Source of the DNA: a virus
DNA length: 30,848 nt
Reading direction: 5' to 3' (one strand)
IMG/VR virus record: IMGVR_UViG_3300025543_000131
Span: 1 to 30,848 of that record
Positions 6,067-16,633 of the stretch are shown here, in pieces (positions within the stretch are counted from its first letter, which is position 1; the number at the start of each line of letters is the position of its first letter). A program made the translations under genes and the position numbers. The notes under the pieces were generated by a model. It had not been told where the DNA came from. It did no database searches and saw nothing but the letters and a program-made list of their open reading frames with translations.

Positions 6067-6525
6067 ATGGCATTGATTATCAATGATCGTGTTAAGGAAA
6101 CCACGACATCAACAGGTACGGGGACCGTGAATCTTGCAGGAGCAAGCACAGGTTTTCAAACTTTTGTCGCTGGTATTGGCACAACAAATACGACGTACTA
6201 CTGTATTGCCATGCAATCAGGAAGTACGGAATATGAAATTGGTATAGGTACTGTAACCGATGCTGCTCCCGATACACTATCAAGAGATACAGTTTTAGAG
6301 AGTACGAATAGTGATAATAAAGTAGATTTTTCTGCAGGTGCAAAAGATGTATTTTGTACATATCCAGCAAAGAAGGCACCATCTCCTGTCATGGATCCTA
6401 CAGCATATGTGACAACACATAATTCTACAATTAGCGATGTTCAAACAATGGACTCTGGCGTTTTAGCTGGACCCGTATCTATTACAGGTACACTGTCCGT
6501 AACAGGAAATTTATTTATTTTATGA
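6067..6525 (+). CDS. Conserved phage tail-region protein (DRVKETTT type)
   Basis: 152 residues with TAGGAG six bases before ATG 6067. The opening ALIINDRVKETTTSTGTGTV and the central IAMQSGSTEYEIGIGTV with LSRDTVLESTNSDNKVDFSAG are a pattern I recall from phage tail and neck proteins, where it precedes a fibre. The end, GTLSVTGNLFIL, is a short hydrophobic β-tail of the kind that packs in trimers. Function is not established; a baseplate-side or fibre-attachment structural role is inferred. Its stop overlaps the start of the first cassette gene by four bases. Confidence 0.7.
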   Translation: MALIINDRVKETTTSTGTGTVNLAGASTGFQTFVAGIGTTNTTYYCIAMQSGSTEYEIGIGTVTDAAPDTLSRDTVLESTNSDNKVDFSAGAKDVFCTYPAKKAPSPVMDPTAYVTTHNSTISDVQTMDSGVLAGPVSITGTLSVTGNLFIL

Positions 6526-7334
6526 GCACGATTGAAGTAAATAAAATTATACCACAAGGATCAGGTACTGCTCTTCAAATAGGAGAGAACGGTGACACCA
6601 TAACGTTGCCAGCAGGTACGGTAATAACATTACCTAACGGATCAATTACAAACGACGAACTAGCAGGTTCTATTGCTAATGCAAAATTAGCAAATTCATC
6701 AATTACAATTAACGGATCATCTGTTGCTTTAGGTGGTTCAATAACAGTAGGATCAGTTTTAACTTTTCCAACAATAGGTTCTATTAATCCTTCAACAATA
6801 GAAAACACACAAACAGCAGTTACTATTACAGGAACTAATTATATTTCTGTTCCTTTTGTCGATGCAATTAATTCTTCAACAGGAGCTATTGTGTCAGCAG
6901 ACTCAGTATCTTTTACAAATGGAACAACTATTGTAGCAACTTTTACACTACCTGTAGACGGTACGTATTTTCTCCGTGTAGAAAATAATGACGGACTAGC
7001 CGTACGATCAGGTTCAGCATTACTAACTGTATCAGACGCACCAGCTTGGCAAACAGCGGCAGGATCACTTGGTACAAATGCTGCTGGTAGTACTGTCTCT
7101 TACACAGTTTCAGCTACGAGTGCTACAGCGTATGCAGTTCAATCTGGTTCTTTACCTGGAGGTGTTTCTTTAAATACAAGCACAGGAGCTATTACAGGAA
7201 CAGAATCAGGAGCTACTTCAGAAACAACTTACAATTTTACTATTCGTGCTACTGACGCTCAAGCACAAACAGCAGATAGAGCCTTTTCAATTACCATTTC
7301 AGTTGGTATAAACAACTCAATGAGGCTTCAATAA
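6522..7334 (+). CDS. Tail fibre gene A1: attachment motif + IPT/TIG + Ig-like
   Basis: 270 residues. Residues 1-30 carry the fibre attachment pattern MSTIEVNKIIPQGSGTALQI followed by GENGDTITLPAG. Residues about 44-78 contain SITNDELAGSIANAKLANSS and ITINGSSVALGGSITVG, a linker I recall from phage fibres. An IPT/TIG domain spans about 83-168 (PTIGSINPSTIENTQTAVTI, then the G-T-Y-F-L-R-V-E-N strand). A putative Ig (He_PIG-like) domain spans about 172-262, with LPGGVSLNTSTGAITGT and TYNFTIRATDAQAQTADRAF. The C-terminus NNSMRLQ may supply the first strand of the LamG fold encoded by the next gene. It likely anchors or extends the adhesin. Stop and next start share TAATG. Confidence 0.8.
   Translation: MSTIEVNKIIPQGSGTALQIGENGDTITLPAGTVITLPNGSITNDELAGSIANAKLANSSITINGSSVALGGSITVGSVLTFPTIGSINPSTIENTQTAVTITGTNYISVPFVDAINSSTGAIVSADSVSFTNGTTIVATFTLPVDGTYFLRVENNDGLAVRSGSALLTVSDAPAWQTAAGSLGTNAAGSTVSYTVSATSATAYAVQSGSLPGGVSLNTSTGAITGTESGATSETTYNFTIRATDAQAQTADRAFSITISVGINNSMRLQ
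7266..7291 (+). repeat. 26-base exact direct repeat, copy in A1
   Basis: Identical over 26 bases to 10901-10926. It encodes the end of the Ig-like domain (QTADRAFS region) in two cassettes whose surrounding DNA is clearly diverged. It marks recent exchange or selective conservation between A1 and A2. Confidence 0.85.
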
Positions 7335-8713
7335 TGACAACTATAAGTAAATCAATATCAAGCACAGGTAACAGACAAATATTTACTATTTCTGTTTGGC
7401 TAAAAAGAGCAAACGGAGTTAGTAATGGAAATGGTGGAATATTTGGAGTTGGCACCGCAGGAAGTGATTCAGGTCAATTTTATTGTAGATTTGATGGTTC
7501 TAATAAGTTAAGAATTGGAGGTGGAGCTACAGTTTACAGGGTTAGTGATGCTGTATTTACTGATCAATTTTCTTTTTATCATATTGTTGCTGCTATTGAT
7601 TCTACAGATTCTAATGCTGATAATAGAGTAAGAGCTTGGGTTAATGGAGAACAAATAACAGTATGGGGAACTAATAATACCATGACACAAAATCAAAACA
7701 CCCCTGTAAATGAAAGTGGTAAAACACATTATATAAATACTGATGGAGATGGAGCTTCTTCTAATTTTAAAGGATACTTTTCTCATTTTCATTTAATTGA
7801 TGGCACTGCTTATCCTCCAACATCTTTTGGAGAAAAAGATTCTACGTCAGGAATATGGAAACCAAAAACTAATCCTAGTGTTACTTATGGAACAAATGGT
7901 GTTTTTCTTAAATTTGAGAACAGTGGTAATATGGGATTAGATTCAAGTGGACAAACTAATAATTATACTATCGGAAGTGCTGGAACACTTCCTCAAGTAA
8001 CAGACACTCCTTCTAATAATTTTGCTATATTAAATCCATACGCCAGACGTCAAACTAATAATGCTCCTGACTATGCTCACGGTAATTTATTTTTAGATAA
8101 TCAAGATCAAGATGGTCAAGGTAATAACTGGTGTTCTAGTTTGGGAGGTTTAACAAAAGGAAAATGGTATTGTGAAATAACTCCACATGTAAATTCAGCA
8201 GCAGTTTCTGCAGGTAATGGTCCATTGTTAGGGGTCATAGCTACCCAAATGGATATGAATGCAGCTAATGTTAGCTCCGACAAAGGTACAGGATACAGTT
8301 ATCTTTATGGGGCAAACGGACAAAAATATTTAGGAGATGGTACAGGTTCTCTTACAGGTTCGGCTTATGGTAATTCTTATGCCACTGATGATATTATAGG
8401 AATGTTTTTAGATTTAGATAATGGAACATTAAAGTTTTCTAAAAACGGTACAATACAAAATAGTGGTACAGCAGCTTTTACAAGTTTAAGTACATATAAA
8501 GATTACAGTGGATATATGTTTGGAGGTAGAGTTGGAACTGGTGGACAATATCAACAATGTCAAATTAAAGGAGCTAATTTTGGTAATCCAAGATTAGCTA
8601 TTAGTTCAAGTCAAGCTGATGCAAATGGTCAAGGAAATTTTGAGTATACACCTAATGATGGGTCATATAATTATTATGCTTTATGCACAAAAAATTTACA
8701 GGAGTTTAACTAA
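7334..8713 (+). CDS. Receptor-binding protein B1: LamG-like + SPRY-like
   Basis: 459 residues, start in TAATG with GAGG upstream. Residues about 8-195 form a concanavalin A/LamG-like lectin domain: FTISVWLKRAN, FYHIVAAIDSTDSNADNRVR, AWVNGE, FKGYFSHFHLIDGTAYPPT and SFGEKDSTSGIWKPK. Residues about 265-430 resemble a SPRY domain: GLTKGKWYCEI at about 272, then DDIIGMFLDLDNGTLKFSKNG at about 353-373. The end is GNFEY...YYALCTKNL, conserved in all three B copies. LamG and SPRY folds bind glycans or proteins, so host-surface recognition is the likely job. I recall the LamG-like and DUF7483 parts fused in other phages; here they are separate genes. Confidence 0.8.
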   Translation: MTTISKSISSTGNRQIFTISVWLKRANGVSNGNGGIFGVGTAGSDSGQFYCRFDGSNKLRIGGGATVYRVSDAVFTDQFSFYHIVAAIDSTDSNADNRVRAWVNGEQITVWGTNNTMTQNQNTPVNESGKTHYINTDGDGASSNFKGYFSHFHLIDGTAYPPTSFGEKDSTSGIWKPKTNPSVTYGTNGVFLKFENSGNMGLDSSGQTNNYTIGSAGTLPQVTDTPSNNFAILNPYARRQTNNAPDYAHGNLFLDNQDQDGQGNNWCSSLGGLTKGKWYCEITPHVNSAAVSAGNGPLLGVIATQMDMNAANVSSDKGTGYSYLYGANGQKYLGDGTGSLTGSAYGNSYATDDIIGMFLDLDNGTLKFSKNGTIQNSGTAAFTSLSTYKDYSGYMFGGRVGTGGQYQQCQIKGANFGNPRLAISSSQADANGQGNFEYTPNDGSYNYYALCTKNLQEFN

Positions 8714-9771
8714 TGGCTTATGCAACAATTGCTGACGCTTCAGCAAACTTTCAAGCACTTACTTATGATGGTAATGGAAGTGATGATAGAAATATTACTT
8801 ATACTGGTAATTCTAATATGCAACCAGATTTCTTATGGTTTAAAAGAAGAAATAACACTGCAAATCATCTTCTTTTTGATTCAACTAGAGGTGTAACATC
8901 AAGAATTCATAGTAATAATTCTAATGCAGCAGCAGTAGAAGCAAACTTTTTACAAGCTTTTAATTCAGATGGTTTTCAAGTTGGAACTGATGCTGATATA
9001 AATGCTAGTGGAGGAACATATATTAATTGGGGATGGAAAGCCAATGGTGGCACTACATCATCTAACACAGATGGATCTATAACTTCAACTGTACAAGCTA
9101 ACGTAGCAGCGGGATTTAGTATTGTTAAATGGACAGGTACAGGATCAAATGGCACGGTAGGACACGGTTTAGGTGTAGCACCAGATTTTATACTTTTTAA
9201 AAATTATGCAGCAACTGAAAACTGGACTACTTATCATTCAATTTTTGGTAATATTGGAGGGATGTATTTAAATTTAACGAATGATTTTAATACAGCAGGT
9301 TCTTGGTATCAAGACACTTCTCCTACATCTAGTTCTTTTTATGTAGGAACAAACTCTAAAACAAACGGCGGCACTATGATAGCTTATTGTTTTGCTAATA
9401 TAAAAGGTTATCAGCAAGCAGGAAAATATATAGGAAATGGGACAAGTTCTAGCGGAGCTTTTGTTTACACTGGTTTTAGGCCCGCTTATGTTCTTCTTAA
9501 AAGAAAAGCTAATGGAGGAGGTATCTGGGCTATAAAAGATTATAGACGTCCTGGACATAACCAAGTTACAGGAAGATTAGACGCTAATGATAGTGATGCA
9601 GAAAATGTGGATCACGTAGCTGAGTTTTTTGGTAATGGATTTAGAGTAATGGACGGTGGTAGTGCAATGAATGCTAATGGAGAAACTTATTTTTATTATG
9701 CAGTTGCTGATCAATCTATAGTTTCTACAAATAATTTACCTTCTAATGCAGGAATAATGAAGGCAGAATAA
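8713..9771 (+). CDS. Tail fibre gene C1: DUF7483-type
   Basis: 352 residues, start in TAATG after an AGGAG. Three related modules follow each other: N-terminal (LQ/MQPDFLWFKRR, SDGFQVGTD, GGTYINWGWKANGG), middle (AGFSIVKWTGTG, GHGLGVAPDFILFKN, MIAYCFANIKGY) and C-terminal (GFRPAYVLLKRK, FFGNGFRVMD, GETYFYYAVADQ). The middle and C-terminal modules match my memory of the DUF7483 family found at ends of marine phage fibre proteins. No catalytic residues are evident. The C-terminus (LPSNAGIMKAE) differs from C2 and C3, which both end in GVPTTA plus one residue. Likely a distal, glycan- or surface-contacting part. Confidence 0.75.
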   Translation: MAYATIADASANFQALTYDGNGSDDRNITYTGNSNMQPDFLWFKRRNNTANHLLFDSTRGVTSRIHSNNSNAAAVEANFLQAFNSDGFQVGTDADINASGGTYINWGWKANGGTTSSNTDGSITSTVQANVAAGFSIVKWTGTGSNGTVGHGLGVAPDFILFKNYAATENWTTYHSIFGNIGGMYLNLTNDFNTAGSWYQDTSPTSSSFYVGTNSKTNGGTMIAYCFANIKGYQQAGKYIGNGTSSSGAFVYTGFRPAYVLLKRKANGGGIWAIKDYRRPGHNQVTGRLDANDSDAENVDHVAEFFGNGFRVMDGGSAMNANGETYFYYAVADQSIVSTNNLPSNAGIMKAE

Positions 9772-9772
9772 C

Positions 9773-10972
9773 ATGGTATCAACACTTAAAGTAAACACAA
9801 TCAAGAAACATTCAGCTACTTCAATCACACTTGGAGAGTCAGGTGATTCTATTGTTAATAATGCTTTAGACGTTACGCCTCAAGGCACATCTGCTAACCC
9901 TGTAACGTTTACTGTTACTGTTGCAGCAAAAACTTCGGCTAATGTATACAACGGCGCAGGTAGTTCTAATGCTTATTTTATAAACGGAACAGAGGCTCCA
10001 AGTTTTTTTATTGAAGGTAATGAATCTTCTTCTTACGAATACTATTATAAATTTGATCAATCCGATGCTTCTAATTCAGGACATCCTTTATTGTTTTATT
10101 TAGATGCAGGAAAGACACAAATATTTAGTACCAATGTAACAACAAACGGTACACCTGGTCAAGCAGGCGCTTACACACAAATAAAAGTTGGAGGTTACAC
10201 ACCTAACGTTTTATATTATCAGTGTAGTAGTCACAGCTATATGGGTAACAAACTTATTAATCCAGCGACAAAAACATTAAGTTTATCAGGAGCTGCTATA
10301 ACTTTACCAACAGGAACAGGAACAGCAAATCAATTTATTGGATATTCTTCTTCCTCTGCTGGCGTAACAACAACAGCTTGGGCAACGGTTGTAGGAGAAA
10401 CCAAACCAACCATTACAGGTATTAGTCCTTCCGTTATAGAAAACACACAAACAGCCGTAACAATTACAGGGACTAATTATGTTAACACGCCTTATGTAGA
10501 TGCAATAAATTCTACAGGGGCTATTACATCAGCAGACTCTGTTTCTTTTACAAGTGCAACAACATTAGTAGCAAACTTTACGTTGCCTGTTGATGGCACG
10601 TATTTTATACGAGTAGAAAACCCAGATGGTAATGCGGTCCGTAGTTCATCAGCAATACTTACCGTATCCGATGCTCCTGCATGGCAGACAGCGGCAGGAT
10701 CTTTAGGAACCGTGGATGCTGGAGGAACTATTAGTTTTACTGTTAATGCAACCAATGCTACAGCATACGCCGTGCAATCAGGATCGTTGCCAGGAGGTGG
10801 TAGTTTGAATACGAGCACAGGAGCTATTACAGGAACCGAGTCTGGAGCAACGCAAGATACAACATATAACTTTACTATTAGAGCAACGGATGCACAGGCT
10901 CAAACAGCAGATAGAGCCTTTTCAATCGCCGTTAACGTTGGTATAAGTAACGCTATGAGGTTTGACGCATAA
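9773..10972 (+). CDS. Tail fibre gene A2 with cupredoxin-like insert
   Basis: 399 residues. The N-terminus VSTLKVNTIKKHSATSITLG is the same attachment pattern as A1 and A3. Residues about 60-165 are unique to this copy and look like a cupredoxin (plastocyanin-like) domain: SGHPLLFYLD with H104, then VLYYQCSSHSYMGNKL with C151, H154 and M157, giving the blue-copper order His...Cys-x2-His-x2-Met. The Cys-His-Met spacing is tighter than in plastocyanin (C-x2-H-x4-M), so metal binding is not assured. IPT/TIG follows at about 211-297 and Ig-like at about 300-390. The end, SNAMRFDA, abuts the LamG start of B2. Stop and next start share TAATG. Confidence 0.8.
   Translation: MVSTLKVNTIKKHSATSITLGESGDSIVNNALDVTPQGTSANPVTFTVTVAAKTSANVYNGAGSSNAYFINGTEAPSFFIEGNESSSYEYYYKFDQSDASNSGHPLLFYLDAGKTQIFSTNVTTNGTPGQAGAYTQIKVGGYTPNVLYYQCSSHSYMGNKLINPATKTLSLSGAAITLPTGTGTANQFIGYSSSSAGVTTTAWATVVGETKPTITGISPSVIENTQTAVTITGTNYVNTPYVDAINSTGAITSADSVSFTSATTLVANFTLPVDGTYFIRVENPDGNAVRSSSAILTVSDAPAWQTAAGSLGTVDAGGTISFTVNATNATAYAVQSGSLPGGGSLNTSTGAITGTESGATQDTTYNFTIRATDAQAQTADRAFSIAVNVGISNAMRFDA
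10901..10926 (+). repeat. 26-base exact direct repeat, copy in A2
   Basis: Identical to 7266-7291, 3,635 bases away. It lies at the same place in the Ig-like domain. The A3 copy is diverged at this place. Confidence 0.85.
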
Positions 10973-12354
10973 TGGGCACATATTTAAGCAGAACTCCAAG
11001 CTCAACAGGTTCAAGAACAAAAGCAACTGTTAGCTTTTGGGTTAAAAGAGCAAATCTAAAGGCTAGTGGTAATCATTATATACTAGAGGCATCATCTTCA
11101 ACTTCACCTTTTAACATGACTAGAGTAAGGTTTGCAGATGATTTACTAATTATTGATAATACTTTGAATGGTAGTGCAGCCAGTGGTTTTTATTTTCAAA
11201 GCAATAGAGAATATAGAGACAACTCAGCTTGGTATCATATTTTTTTTAGTGTTGATGTTACCCAAGCTAATTCAACTGATGGTTGGAAATTATATGTTAA
11301 TGGAGTTCAACAAACAAAAGCCTTGACTTATTGGGTACAAAACGCAAATCTTGAATGGTCTCAGTCTGGTGTTCAAATGAATATTGGTAGACGACATGAT
11401 AATAGCACTGAACATCTTGATGGTTATTTAACAGAGTTTTATTACATAGATGGCACAATAAAATCATATACAGATTTTGGAGAAACAGATTCTACAACAG
11501 GTATATGGAAACCAAAAACGTATTCAGGTTCATACGGCACCAATGGATTTAGATTAGAATTTAAAAATGCTGCGGCATTAGGAACAGATACCAGTGGTAA
11601 TAGTAATACATGGACGGTAAATAACGCAGGCACGGGTGCTCAAGTTGTTGACACGCCAAGTAATGTTTTTGCTACTTTAACATCTATGGGCTTTCCTCAA
11701 GGTACTAGAAATGTTTTAACACAAGGTAATTTAGATTTTGACTTTACAGGAGATGGAGCACAAAGTGGTCAAAGATTAGATAATCAATGTATTTCAAATA
11801 TTGGTTTGACTAAAGGTAAATGGTACGCTGAATTTAAAATAACTGAAGATGTGAACGGTGGTTTTGCAGGAATTACAAATTGGTCAAATAAACAAAACAC
11901 TCAAAACATTGAAAGTTTTGCCTACATTTATACAGGTGATGGAGATCTTTATTATAAAGAAAAAACAGGTGCTGGAACAAGTACTTCTTCATATGGCGCA
12001 GGTTTATCATTAAATGATGTTATGATGGTAGCATTAGATATGGATAATAATAATGTTTATTTTGGCAACAATGGGCAATGGGGAAATGGAAGTGGTGCTT
12101 GGAATCAAGCTAACCCTACATCGGCAAAAAATTTTAGTTCAGATTTTATAAATACAGATTCTTACGGTGTTGTTGTTTTTAATGTTGCTGCCGCTGGAGC
12201 TAATGAAACTCCTAGATGGTTAGCAAATTTTGGCAATCCACCTTTTACTATAGCTTCTAGTAATAGTGATGGAGCAGGATATGGTAATTTTGAATATGCA
12301 GTACCGTCAGGGTACTATGCACTTTGCACAGAAAATTTAAACACATACGGATAA
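10972..12354 (+). CDS. Receptor-binding protein B2: LamG-like + SPRY-like
   Basis: 460 residues. LamG-like part about 5-195: TYLSRTPSSTGSRTKATVSF, WVKRAN, SAWYHIFFSVDVTQANSTDG, LYVNGVQ, LDGYLTEFYYIDGT and FGETDSTTGIWKPK. SPRY-like part about 270-430: GLTKGKWYAEFKI near 278 and NDVMMVALDMDNNNVYFGNN near 348-367, followed by GQW. The end is GNFEYAVPSGYYALCTENL, close to B3. The middle of the lectin and the SPRY loops differ strongly from B1 and B3, as expected if each copy recognises a different surface. Separated from C2 by three bases. Confidence 0.8.
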   Translation: MGTYLSRTPSSTGSRTKATVSFWVKRANLKASGNHYILEASSSTSPFNMTRVRFADDLLIIDNTLNGSAASGFYFQSNREYRDNSAWYHIFFSVDVTQANSTDGWKLYVNGVQQTKALTYWVQNANLEWSQSGVQMNIGRRHDNSTEHLDGYLTEFYYIDGTIKSYTDFGETDSTTGIWKPKTYSGSYGTNGFRLEFKNAAALGTDTSGNSNTWTVNNAGTGAQVVDTPSNVFATLTSMGFPQGTRNVLTQGNLDFDFTGDGAQSGQRLDNQCISNIGLTKGKWYAEFKITEDVNGGFAGITNWSNKQNTQNIESFAYIYTGDGDLYYKEKTGAGTSTSSYGAGLSLNDVMMVALDMDNNNVYFGNNGQWGNGSGAWNQANPTSAKNFSSDFINTDSYGVVVFNVAAAGANETPRWLANFGNPPFTIASSNSDGAGYGNFEYAVPSGYYALCTENLNTYG

Positions 12355-12357
12355 GAT

Positions 12358-13419
12358 ATGGCTTATACAACAATAACAGATCCTTCAGTATATTTTCAGA
12401 CAGCACTTTATTCTGGTAATGGTGGAGGTACAAATAATGTAGTTAATGATGGTAATTCTAATCTACAACCAGATTGGGTTTGGGTTAAAGAAAGAAGTAG
12501 TAATTCTTCACATGCTTTAACAAATTCAACTAATGGAGCAGGTTATATATTAAGTAGTAATAATACTAATGACGAAAGTTCAGCGAGTGCTTTTACTAGT
12601 TTTGATTCTGATGGTTTTACAGTAGGAAGTGATGGTAAAACAAATGAAAGTGGTCAAACATATGTAGGCTGGCAATGGAAAGCAAATGGTGGAACTACTG
12701 CTAGTAATACAGATGGTTCAATTACTTCTACAGTGCAAGCTAATACAACGGCTGGATTTAGTATTGTGTCTTATACTGGCGTTAACAGTTCTAATGGGCA
12801 AACATCAACAATAGGTCATGGCCTTAATTCGGCACCTGAACTAATCATTTGCAAACGCAGAAACGGTACTTATGGGTGGTCTGTTGGTAGCACTACTATA
12901 GGTAATTTTACCTCAAGCAATGTTTTTGAGTTAAACGAAACAGGTGCGCCATCAGCAACATACGCTTACGAATGGGGTGCAAATCCAACTAGCACAGTTT
13001 TCACAACTGGCTATTCAAACAGGACAAATATAAGCGGCGGCACATTTATAGCTTATTGTTTTGCACCCATACAAGGCTATAGTAAATTTGGTAGCTACAC
13101 AGGTAATGGTAATGCAGACGGAACATTTATCTATACAGGTTTTAAACCTCGTTTTTTTATGCTCAAAGGCACAGGAAATGTTTCATCGTGGTGTATGTAT
13201 GATACTGCAAGAGATCCTATTAATCAAGCTTCACAAAAAATTTGGGCAAACGAAAATAATGCTGAACAGTCCACTGGAGCTATGGATTTTTTATCTAATG
13301 GTATTAAAATGAGAATTAATGATAATGATTTTAATGGTAGTGGATACCAATATCTCTACATGGCATTTGCAGAAAATCCATTTGTAGCAACGAACGGAGT
13401 GCCAACAACGGCTAACTAA
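12358..13419 (+). CDS. Tail fibre gene C2: DUF7483-type
   Basis: 353 residues with the three-module layout. Module 1 has NDGNSNLQPDWVWVKERS, FDSDGFTVGSD and QTYVGWQWKANGGTT. Module 2 has AGFSIVSYTGVNS, GHGLNSAPELIICKRRNGTY and FIAYCFAPIQGYSKFGSY. Module 3 has YTGNGNADGTFIYTGFKPRF, MDFLSNGIKMRIND and GYQYLYMAFAENPF. It starts with TTITDPSVYF, which is nearly the same in C3 (including about 19 identical bases) but not in C1. A surface-binding distal fibre part is the best guess. Confidence 0.75.
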   Translation: MAYTTITDPSVYFQTALYSGNGGGTNNVVNDGNSNLQPDWVWVKERSSNSSHALTNSTNGAGYILSSNNTNDESSASAFTSFDSDGFTVGSDGKTNESGQTYVGWQWKANGGTTASNTDGSITSTVQANTTAGFSIVSYTGVNSSNGQTSTIGHGLNSAPELIICKRRNGTYGWSVGSTTIGNFTSSNVFELNETGAPSATYAYEWGANPTSTVFTTGYSNRTNISGGTFIAYCFAPIQGYSKFGSYTGNGNADGTFIYTGFKPRFFMLKGTGNVSSWCMYDTARDPINQASQKIWANENNAEQSTGAMDFLSNGIKMRINDNDFNGSGYQYLYMAFAENPFVATNGVPTTAN

Positions 13420-13420
13420 T

Positions 13421-14203
13421 ATGTCAGAGATAAAAGTAAATACCCTTAAAAAATATGATGGTTCTACCATCACGATTGGTGAAGGTGGTGACACGGTTAC
13501 AATAACACCAGGTATTACTGCTACAACATTAACATCAGGCACTATTCCTAATGCACGGTACGGTACACCAACTTTTGATGCGTCTAATTTAACAAACTTA
13601 CCAGCAGAAACAAAACCAACAATTGGTAGTATTAGTCCTACTGTTATTACCAATGACTCAACGGCTGTCACTATTACAGGCACAAACTATGTATCTATTC
13701 CAACTGTTGACGCAATCTCTACAACAGGAGCAATCGTAGCAGCGAGCGCAGTAAGTTTTACAAGTGCTACTGTTATTGTTGCAACACTGACGTTACCGAC
13801 AGATGGCACATACTTTTTACGAATAGAAAATAATGATGGTAATGCTGTTCGGTCAAATACAGCTTTACTTACCGTATCAGATAATCCTGTTTGGACAACA
13901 AACTCTGGTTCTCTTGGAACTATTGCAGGAAACTTTTCAGGTACCGTAGCTACGGTAGCAGCGTCTGGTGAGTCAGTAACCTTTTCAGAAACAACAAGTG
14001 TATTAACAAACGCAAGTCAAGCAAATTGTTCGCTAAACGCAAGCACGGGTGTTATAACTACAAGTGATTTTGGTGGATCGTCTACGAGCGCAACAACGTA
14101 TAACTTTACTCTTCGTGCAACAGATTCACAAGGGCAAACAGCGGACCGTGCTTTTTCACTAACATCAAGTTTTGCAATAACTACTTCAGGAAGGTTTGAT
14201 TAA
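13421..14203 (+). CDS. Tail fibre gene A3: attachment motif + IPT/TIG + Ig-like
   Basis: 260 residues. Attachment motif MSEIKVNTLKKYDGSTITIG at the N-terminus, followed by GEGGDTVTI. A short linker with ATTLTSGTIPNARYGTPTFD and ASNLTNLPAE is typical of phage fibres. IPT/TIG covers about 66-150 (KPTIGSISPTVITNDSTAVT, DGTYFLRIENNDGNAVRSNT). The Ig-like domain, about 153-255, keeps TYNFTLRATDSQGQTADRAF but has lost the LPGG turn of A1/A2 and instead reads SQANCSLNASTGVIT. It ends in TTSGRFD, the proposed first LamG strand of the next gene. Stop and next start share TAATG. Confidence 0.8.
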   Translation: MSEIKVNTLKKYDGSTITIGEGGDTVTITPGITATTLTSGTIPNARYGTPTFDASNLTNLPAETKPTIGSISPTVITNDSTAVTITGTNYVSIPTVDAISTTGAIVAASAVSFTSATVIVATLTLPTDGTYFLRIENNDGNAVRSNTALLTVSDNPVWTTNSGSLGTIAGNFSGTVATVAASGESVTFSETTSVLTNASQANCSLNASTGVITTSDFGGSSTSATTYNFTLRATDSQGQTADRAFSLTSSFAITTSGRFD

Positions 14204-15576
14204 TGGCGACTCAATTATCTAGAACAGCATCAAGCACAACAGATGCACAAAGAAAAACTTGGACTCTTAGTTTTTGGTTAAAACCATCAAACATGAGCGG
14301 GTCTAGTGCACAAGAATATCATTATGTGTATCAAGCAAGTGGAGGTTCTAATGGATACTTTAGAATGGATAGTGATCAAAAGTTAAGATGGAGAGATTAC
14401 ACAAATGGTGGTTCTCCTGATTATTTAAAAATAACAAATAGCGTATTTAGAGATCCTTCTGCTTGGTATCATATAGTTTTAAGATGTGACACCACACAAG
14501 CAACAGCCGCAGATAGAATAAGATTATATGTTAATGGCGAATTACAAGAATGGCAAAATGCAAACTATCCAGCACAAAATCATGTTACTTTTATAAACTC
14601 TACATTTCCATATCAAATAGGTCAGTCTGGTTCTAACGGACTTGATTCAACTTATCTCGCACAATATATTATGTGTGCAGGGCAATCATATGCACCAACT
14701 GTTTTTGGTTCAACAAATGCTAATGGTATTTGGGTGCCTAACACAAGTCCTTCAGTTACATATGGAACCAATGGTTTTAAATTAGATTTTGCAGGAACAG
14801 GAACTGCTGCTGATGCGAGTGGTTTTGGTGCAGATAGTTCTGGTAATGGTAATCACTTTACTTCAGGAGGATTAGGCACAAATCCTAGTACAACAGATAC
14901 TTGTCAAAATAATTTCTGTACCTTAAATCCTATATACGTTGATGAAGGAAATAATATTTCAGGTTCTGATTTTTCAAAAGGCAACTTGGAGTATACAACA
15001 TCCTCTGATGGTTGGAGGTTTGGTAGAGGTACTTTTTCTTTTTCCGCTGGTAAATGGTACATAGAAGGTAAGGCAACAAAAACAGGAAATGGAGAAGTTT
15101 CTAATCTTGCTTTAGTTTCAGTTAATGATACAGGGGATGTAAATGGTTCCTCAGAGGGTATTAGAATTAATTTGGGTGGCAGTAATACACTTTTACAAAA
15201 ATTAGATACTGGCACAGCAACTACAGTTTTTAGCAATTTTAACAGTGGTAACATTGCGCAATTAGCCGTTGATTTAGATAGTGGTAAAGTATGGGTTGGC
15301 AACAATGGCACTTGGTATAATAATAACAATGCTTCAACAACACTTAATGCGAGTTATCCTGATTTTACAATAGACACAACAAAAACTTGGGTTCCTTGTA
15401 TAGCAGCTAGCAGAAATGGTTCTGACAATACTACATGGCAAATAAATTTTGGTAACCCTACTTATACTATAGCATCAGGAAATGCAGATGCTAATGGATA
15501 CGGAAATTTCGAATACGCTGTACCATCAGGGTTTTATGCGTTATGTACTAAGAACCTAGGAGCATACGGAGGTTAA
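14203..15576 (+). CDS. Receptor-binding protein B3: LamG-like + SPRY-like
   Basis: 457 residues with AGGAAGG upstream. LamG-like part about 5-200: QRKTWTLSFWLKPSN, SAWYHIVLRCDTTQATAADR, IRLYVNGELQEW, and PSVTYGTNGFKLDFAG. SPRY-like part about 275-430: FSAGKWYIEGKA near 280 and IAQLAVDLDSGKVWVGNNGT near 351-370. The end is GNFEYAVPSGFYALCTKNL. The segment usually reading IDGT in the lectin is CAGQSYAPTVFG here, a local divergence. Likely a sugar- or protein-binding adhesin. Confidence 0.8.
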   Translation: MATQLSRTASSTTDAQRKTWTLSFWLKPSNMSGSSAQEYHYVYQASGGSNGYFRMDSDQKLRWRDYTNGGSPDYLKITNSVFRDPSAWYHIVLRCDTTQATAADRIRLYVNGELQEWQNANYPAQNHVTFINSTFPYQIGQSGSNGLDSTYLAQYIMCAGQSYAPTVFGSTNANGIWVPNTSPSVTYGTNGFKLDFAGTGTAADASGFGADSSGNGNHFTSGGLGTNPSTTDTCQNNFCTLNPIYVDEGNNISGSDFSKGNLEYTTSSDGWRFGRGTFSFSAGKWYIEGKATKTGNGEVSNLALVSVNDTGDVNGSSEGIRINLGGSNTLLQKLDTGTATTVFSNFNSGNIAQLAVDLDSGKVWVGNNGTWYNNNNASTTLNASYPDFTIDTTKTWVPCIAASRNGSDNTTWQINFGNPTYTIASGNADANGYGNFEYAVPSGFYALCTKNLGAYGG

Positions 15577-15577
15577 C

Positions 15578-16633
15578 ATGGCAGTATATACAACAATCAA
15601 CGATCCTTCAGTATATTTTCATACACAGTTATATACAGGAACAGGTAGCGCACGTTCTGTTACAAATGACGGTAATGCTAATCTACAACCAGATTGGTTA
15701 TGGATTAAAAGAAGAAGTGGATCAAATGCTTCTATGATAGTTAATTCATCTTTAGGACTAAGTGGCAACGTAGCAGTTGCAAGTAATTTAAACCTTGCAG
15801 CATATGCAACTCCTGTAAGTGCTTTAAATAGTGATGGTTTTTCGGTTAATGCTGGCGATGCTTCAGTTAACGCAAATGGAAGTACTTATGTAGCATGGCA
15901 GTGGAAAGACAATGGTGGAACAACGGTTACAAATAATGATGGATCACACGCTTCAAGCGTGCAAGTTAATACTACAGCAGGGTTTTCTATAGTAACATAT
16001 ACAGGAACTGGCTCAAGTGTAACTCTTGGACATGGTTTAGGCGCAGCTCCAGAGATAATATTTAATAAAGGATTAAGTGATAATCATGCATGGATTGTAG
16101 GAGCTACTGCTGATAGTTCAAACTTATCAAAAGTAATGATACTAAATTTTACAGATGCAAGTACATCTGACGCAAATAGTTTTAGTAATACTGCTCCAAC
16201 ATCTTCTGTTTATACAATTGGTACTGCGGGAGGAGTAAATCAAAACGGACAAAATTACATATCGTACTTATTTAGATCCATACAAGGATATAGTAAAATT
16301 GGAACATACACTGGTAATGGTAGCGCAGATGGAACGTTTGTTTATACAGGATTCAAGCCAGCTTATATTCTAATTAAATGTACAAATGCAGCTAAAAACT
16401 GGTACATATTTGATAATAAAAGACCTACATATAATGTAGATAACATACTAATTACAGCTAACACAGATGCTGCAGAAGTTGTTGGTAGTGAAAAAATAGA
16501 CTTTTTGTCAAATGGTTTTAAGTTAAGACAAGATTTTAGTCATACTAATGCATCAGGTAGCACGTACCTCTACATGGCTTTCGCTTCAAATCCTTTTGTA
16601 ACCTCGGACGGCGTTCCCACAACAGCGAGATAG
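15578..16633 (+). CDS. Tail fibre gene C3: DUF7483-type with three internal repeats
   Basis: 351 residues; GGAGG overlaps the preceding stop. The triple internal repeat is clearest here. Module 1, about 19-112: YTGTG, LQPDWLWIKRRSGS, LNSDGFSV, NANGSTYVAWQW. Module 2, about 141-232: YTGTG, LGHGLGAAPEIIFNKG, HAWIVG, NQNGQNYISYLF. Module 3, about 244-345: YTGNG, YTGFKPAYILIKCTN, NWYIFDNKR, FLSNGFKL, NASGSTYLYMAF. Module 3 matches the DUF7483 pattern as I remember it. Likely a distal fibre or tip domain array; no enzyme motif. Confidence 0.78.
   Translation: MAVYTTINDPSVYFHTQLYTGTGSARSVTNDGNANLQPDWLWIKRRSGSNASMIVNSSLGLSGNVAVASNLNLAAYATPVSALNSDGFSVNAGDASVNANGSTYVAWQWKDNGGTTVTNNDGSHASSVQVNTTAGFSIVTYTGTGSSVTLGHGLGAAPEIIFNKGLSDNHAWIVGATADSSNLSKVMILNFTDASTSDANSFSNTAPTSSVYTIGTAGGVNQNGQNYISYLFRSIQGYSKIGTYTGNGSADGTFVYTGFKPAYILIKCTNAAKNWYIFDNKRPTYNVDNILITANTDAAEVVGSEKIDFLSNGFKLRQDFSHTNASGSTYLYMAFASNPFVTSDGVPTTAR

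Follow-up and report, generated by a model that had tools for sequence, protein, structure and literature searches.

Background

Cupredoxins are familiar as carriers of electrons and as domains of enzymes. The ligands of amicyanin are His53, Cys92, His95 and Met98 (PMC12723479), positions that we confirmed on the 1AAC sequence. In cyanophages, the plastocyanin gene petE is a known auxiliary gene, and gp9 was listed as a 'baseplate socket' in earlier genomics (PMC2984593). Many structural proteins of the T4-like cyanophage proteome are without structural or functional assignment (PMC3037559). Our searches of the open-access literature found no cupredoxin or plastocyanin-like domain described in phage fibres, virions or Caudovirales structural proteins.

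The tail-fibre-type protein A2 and its insert

The window, that is, the whole stretch of 30,848 nucleotides analysed here, encodes the structural protein A2 and two paralogues, A1 and A3. Their features are as follows.

9773..10972, + strand: A2, 399-aa structural protein of the tail-fibre type, in which the domain lies (open reading frame; phrog_30742 match)
9773..9889, + strand: N-terminal segment of A2, residues 1-39, which A1 and A3 have in similar form
9890..10276, + strand: predicted cupredoxin domain of A2, residues ~40-168 (AlphaFold2 model, Foldseek, VIA and homologues)
10082..10084, + strand: H104, predicted as the first copper ligand, where strand 4 begins (aligned with amicyanin H53)
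10223..10225, + strand: C151, predicted thiolate ligand, where strand 7 ends (aligned with amicyanin C92)
10232..10234, + strand: H154, second His of the predicted ligand set (aligned with amicyanin H95)
10241..10243, + strand: M157, predicted axial ligand (in register with amicyanin M98)
10394..10669, + strand: first Ig-like domain of A2, residues ~208-299 (beta-rich; weak PPC match)
10703..10936, + strand: second Ig-like domain of A2, He_PIG PF05345, residues 311-388 (Pfam)
6522-7334: A1, short Ig-domain fibre protein, paralogue of A2
13421-14203: A3, short Ig-domain fibre protein, paralogue of A2

The preliminary description had proposed a cupredoxin-like insert in a tail fibre, with about 130 extra residues confined to A2. 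The fibre context is borne out by the match of A2 residues 41-365 to phrog_30742 ('tail fiber protein', E 1e-30), a span that takes in the cupredoxin domain itself. Alignment of the three paralogues likewise gave ~125-130 extra residues in A2 (about residues 40-165) that are absent from A1 and A3. They sit directly after the shared N-terminal segment, which has the pattern MSxIKVNT..xTITIGExGD in all three proteins and is probably a virion anchor, a function deduced for residues 1-39. Further along, the first Ig-like domain is shared with A1 and A3 and was modelled with a confidence of ~90 in most blocks, and the He_PIG match has an E-value of 2.4e-11 (44.4 bits against a cut-off of 24). In the full-length A2 model (pTM 0.42) the N-terminus is of low confidence.

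The four proposed ligands are at the positions first reported, with SGHPLLF running from residue 102 (nt 10076) and YYQCSSHSYMG from residue 148 (nt 10214). C151 is the only cysteine among the 399 residues, H104 and H154 are two of three histidines, and M157 is the sole methionine besides M1 and M395. An accidental origin of the insert in a single contig was rejected: three contigs are identical and many others are 73-94% identical.

In the window, positions 6522-16633 hold three successive cassettes, each composed of a short Ig-domain fibre, a SPRY/LamG-like protein and a DUF7483 protein; this triple arrangement is likely a system that varies the adsorption apparatus. The large protein at 401-2044 has a single match in the phage collection, to Pelagibacter phage HTVC115P (71% identity over half), and by sequence the window phage is of the pelagiphage kind. 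A search of HTVC115P for the cupredoxin domain found no copy, so the domain is accessory in phages of this type.

The predicted fold

The preliminary description had called for structure prediction and a fold search, and both returned a cupredoxin. From 45 sequences (the window domain and 44 natural homologues), AlphaFold2 gave a domain model with pLDDT 90.8 and pTM 0.85 and with eight strands in cupredoxin order. The prediction is a Greek-key beta-sandwich of about eight strands, as in the cupredoxin superfamily, and its ligands lie where cupredoxins carry them (His at strand 4, Cys at strand 7, His and Met before strand 8). In domain numbering, H65 precedes strand 67-70, C112 ends strand 107-112, and H115 and M118 precede strand 119-123.

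The ten best Foldseek matches in the PDB were all cupredoxins, rusticyanin being first at E 5e-4. VIA-align matched the N-terminal cupredoxin domain of copper nitrite reductase (Z 8.3 over 103 residues) and covered 93 of the 95 residues of the purple cupredoxin of Nitrosopumilus (N. maritimus) at Z 6.7. These VIA Z values are middling taken alone; the fold call is convincing because many independent cupredoxins and the ligand positions agree. On the model, the A2 insert is almost certainly of the cupredoxin fold, as had been proposed.

Sequence searches gave fainter signals. No Pfam family scored above cut-off for the domain. A2 did not match PF00127 (Copper-bind), which was matched by one of 45 family members at E 0.26, below the gathering cut-off; Pfam matches of the domain to At5g54830-like and DUF4623 were weak (best E ~4e-4). 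PDB sequence searches with the domain, the family profiles and the P-SCSP2 and gp9 queries returned no significant solved relative of the domain, and weak partial matches to pseudoazurin point toward a cupredoxin too. In BFVD, the model was also matched by small 'beta-sandwich proteins' of Pithovirus and Marseillevirus LCPAC/LCMAC, with TM up to 0.75 (target).

The ligand loop

The His/Cys/His/Met order of type-1 copper proteins, already read from the letters, was recovered both in the model and in the register with amicyanin. Profile alignment placed domain H65, C112, H115 and M118 on amicyanin H53, C92, H95 and M98 (E ~0.005, hhalign probability 6-10%), a register obtained in local mode, the global mode being uninformative. 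This register gives indirect support to a convergence of the four predicted ligands on a single metal position. The C-x2-H-x2-M spacing had been described as tighter than usual. This was mistaken: it is the natural loop length of amicyanin and hence no anomaly, and an argument from its shortness against a type-1 site falls on the same ground. The loop is present in 211 of the 221 copies of the main group. Some baseplate-type copies (L409, L398, L400 and L191) have C-x2-H-x3-M, one residue longer (for example CTNHGGAM and CQTHGGGM). As modelled, the A2 insert amounts to one whole cupredoxin domain, its predicted type-1-like site intact and its loop of amicyanin length.

Distribution among phages and cells

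The preliminary description mentioned similar motifs in structural proteins of marine phages, and we found them in phage records and contigs alike. Hundreds of marine viral contigs contain the domain. By tblastn, 49 phage records matched the window copy, 339 the divergent P-SCSP2 copy and 345 the gp9 copy; marine cyanophages, pelagiphages and Methylophilales phages make up nearly all of the matching records. Podovirus- and siphovirus-like phages have the domain as well. The plasmid search with the domain gave no match. An intact-ligand copy was found in a BspA-like repeat protein (5494-aa frame) on a 1-Mb contig of a Bacteroidetes single-cell genome (L098 2-8281), possibly a cellular source of the domain or an exchange with phages.

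Among the matches listed, gp9 of T4-like cyanophages, labelled 'baseplate wedge tail fiber connector', accounts for most. The gp9 of ACG-2014d has a PF07880 (T4_gp9_10_N) match at its N-terminus; the cupredoxin, with H-C-x2-H-x2-M, makes up its final ~95 residues. N-terminal copies occur in the proximal fibre of P-SSM2 and in a fibre-like protein of P-SCSP2. We also located the domain in gp7 of P-HM1, P-HM2 and S-CAM22, in a gp9/10-like protein of Pelagibacter phage Mosig, in the Melnitz and Bellamy fibres and in virion proteins of S-TIM5. Copies in contigs are N-terminal, internal or C-terminal in their host protein, some of them far inside large proteins. In Synechococcus phage S-B68 (L370 1-3294), a single protein contains DUF7483 segments with the cupredoxin between or inside them; in the window, too, DUF7483 proteins occur together with A2. 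The domain thus represents a module family without a Pfam model that marine phages reuse in structural proteins.

Conservation and joint loss of the ligands

Across 49 divergent homologues (mean column identity 38%), only six columns never vary: F55, H65, G87, C112, H115 and M118. The four ligands named beforehand therefore make up four of the six (~2e-6 by random draw). Viral contigs, genome contigs and isolates together gave 341 distinct copies whose sites could be read, and 331 of them keep the whole H-C-H-M set; contigs were scanned with short conserved peptides, which biases this collection toward typical members, and plain tblastn of phage records gave the same ligand picture for isolates. 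At least 334 of the 341 copies retain the axial Met. The His and Cys codons at the ligand sites change synonymously, leaving the residue unchanged. Retention of the ligands in close homologues had been set as a test of the metal site, and among A2-type copies one (L020) has lost two ligands and all others keep the four.

The ten exceptions comprise a copy with a longer loop, CNTNGHNYM (L029), one without the first His alone (L475) and eight without two to four ligands. Independent loss would predict ~1.0 copy with at least two ligands gone where eight were observed, a comparison that is approximate owing to relatedness (L364/L365 and L463/L484 are related pairs). Degenerate copies are often neighbours of intact ones: in the baseplate proteins of S-CAM22 and P-SSM7, an intact copy is accompanied by another that reads K/E-G-T-L at the ligand sites. 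These gp7-like proteins (L364 421-3312, L365 394-3282) also contain a YHYH domain, PF14240, at E ~1e-15. In the triple-copy protein L483, all three C-x2-H-x2-M loops are intact; in the orthologous tandem proteins L484 and L463, copy 1 is intact and copies 2 and 3 are without most or all ligands. The three tandem proteins form a natural experiment on loss of the metal site. Cyanophage PSS2 has a stand-alone version of 112 aa next to the tape measure gene (L366 1492-1830), with D-A-T-M, three of the four ligands being lost.

Since ligands are lost several together, the four residues appear to act as one metal site, and it is very probably as a metal site that they are retained. Because ligand-free copies persist, the fold can do without metal.

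Proposed role and alternatives

Copies of the module are often found at virion-proximal joints: the N-termini of fibres, the C-terminus of the gp9 socket and gp7-type baseplate proteins. On balance we favour the explanation that an intact type-1-like cupredoxin module, loaded with copper, is reused by marine phages to stiffen joints of the adsorption apparatus. Copper occupancy in virions and the source of the copper are what we infer: most likely each copy would bind one copper ion, taken up from seawater or from the host as it lyses. The bound metal would tie the edge of strand 4 to the strand 7-8 loop, and the module so tied would stay rigid and stable in seawater, fixing the geometry of a fibre or socket joint. 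Copper is probably the native metal. The stabilised joint as the main role is put forward more tentatively, as something that could well be the case; it is favoured because many copies are virion-proximal and the residues between the ligands vary, unlike an electron-transfer docking face. Against a pure joint role are the ligand-free stand-alone protein of PSS2, the deep-internal copies and the cellular adhesin copy.

Because the cytoplasm of the host, in which phage proteins fold, has little free copper, the site may hold zinc or no metal. Cupredoxin His/Cys/His/Met sites can take zinc if made in the cytoplasm, and virion proteins are assembled there; the site could then hold zinc, another metal or Cu(I) only, with a purely structural part, its type-1 look being inherited. 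The proline that follows the first His in most copies also counts against the favoured reading, as small cupredoxins usually have Asn or Ser after this ligand. Retention of the axial Met in nearly every copy is, however, hard to explain for a zinc site, and we find this alternative unlikely. A metal-free beta-sandwich spacer, its four residues kept merely by packing or descent, would account for the maintenance of degenerate copies (L364, L365, L366, L463 and L484), which indicates that the fold alone can be useful. The share of ligands among the invariant columns at such low mean identity nevertheless fits a metal site and not packing, and both the synonymous His and Cys codon changes and the joint loss are expected of a metal site, which makes the spacer very improbable.

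Two other alternatives accept the metal and give it a different task. The more exciting of them is attachment through copper, in which the metal domain on the fibre or baseplate would be recognised by a copper-uptake or cupredoxin-binding protein of the host outer membrane. The domain does lie on the adsorption apparatus, its carriers are nearly all phages of ocean bacteria, and the nearest precedent is the Trojan or Ferrojan horse hypothesis with the HxH iron sites of marine phage fibres (PMC11705849). Yet many copies are at the virion-proximal end and not at receptor-binding tips, and free variation of the inter-ligand residues (CSSHSY, CTNHSG, CTAHGA) leaves no conserved docking face. We know of no receptor for attachment through a phage cupredoxin domain, and such attachment seems decidedly unlikely. 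The site could instead be a redox or copper-sensing switch, a Cu(I)/Cu(II) change in the periplasm or via host redox proteins altering the joint and triggering the fibre or tail. Type-1 ligand sets normally serve redox, and gp7, gp9 and the proximal fibres are moving parts in T4-like triggering. Against this, type-1 sites barely change shape upon reduction, no redox partner gene was recognised beside the domain in the window, and podovirus- and siphovirus-like phages with other triggers have the same module; a switch is thus quite improbable.

Our analysis suggests that the virions of many ocean phages carry protein-bound metal, probably copper. A further-reaching version, in which a type-1 copper site is near-universal in T4-like cyanophage gp9 and in many pelagiphage fibres and copper controls adsorption or triggering, is doubtful; if true, a large share of ocean phage particles would carry copper and their infectivity would be linked to ocean copper. 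The copper content of virions, the effect of copper availability on infectivity and the role of the C-terminal part of cyanophage gp9 are testable now. The family also supplies a missing domain definition for many proteins currently labelled hypothetical.

Comparison with known systems

The phage domain shares its predicted fold class, ligand order and C-x2-H-x2-M loop with amicyanin (1AAC) and plastocyanin-like cupredoxins. Whole-domain sequence similarity to amicyanin is not significant, the A2 domain having no PDB sequence match, and the first ligand is followed by proline in the phage domain (H-P) and by asparagine in amicyanin (H-N). Amicyanin is a secreted soluble electron carrier, whereas the phage domain is a module of virion proteins. 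Rusticyanin and the domains of copper nitrite reductase are the best structural matches of the A2 domain (Foldseek and VIA), at 12-17% identity, but those proteins are enzymes or periplasmic carriers. A conserved type-1-like site in fibre and baseplate proteins would be a new use of the cupredoxin fold.

Within phages, petE also provides cyanophages with a cupredoxin. It is, however, a photosynthesis gene that comes from the host and encodes a free electron carrier, whereas the domain described here is part of structural proteins and is found in pelagiphages too. The N-terminal domain of T4 gp9 and gp10 (PF07880) is also present in cyanophage gp9, whose C-terminal domain, unlike that of the T4 proteins, is the cupredoxin; a Pfam search of A2 for PF07880 gave no match. 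The HxH iron sites of T4 gp37 and of marine phage fibres place metal in the adsorption apparatus, as is proposed here (PMC11705849), and copper would be the second metal, after iron, to be tied to phage adsorption. The HxH sites hold iron by paired histidines in a trimeric fibre, whereas the phage domain has a one-chain His/Cys/His/Met site in a predicted beta-sandwich, often near the virion end.
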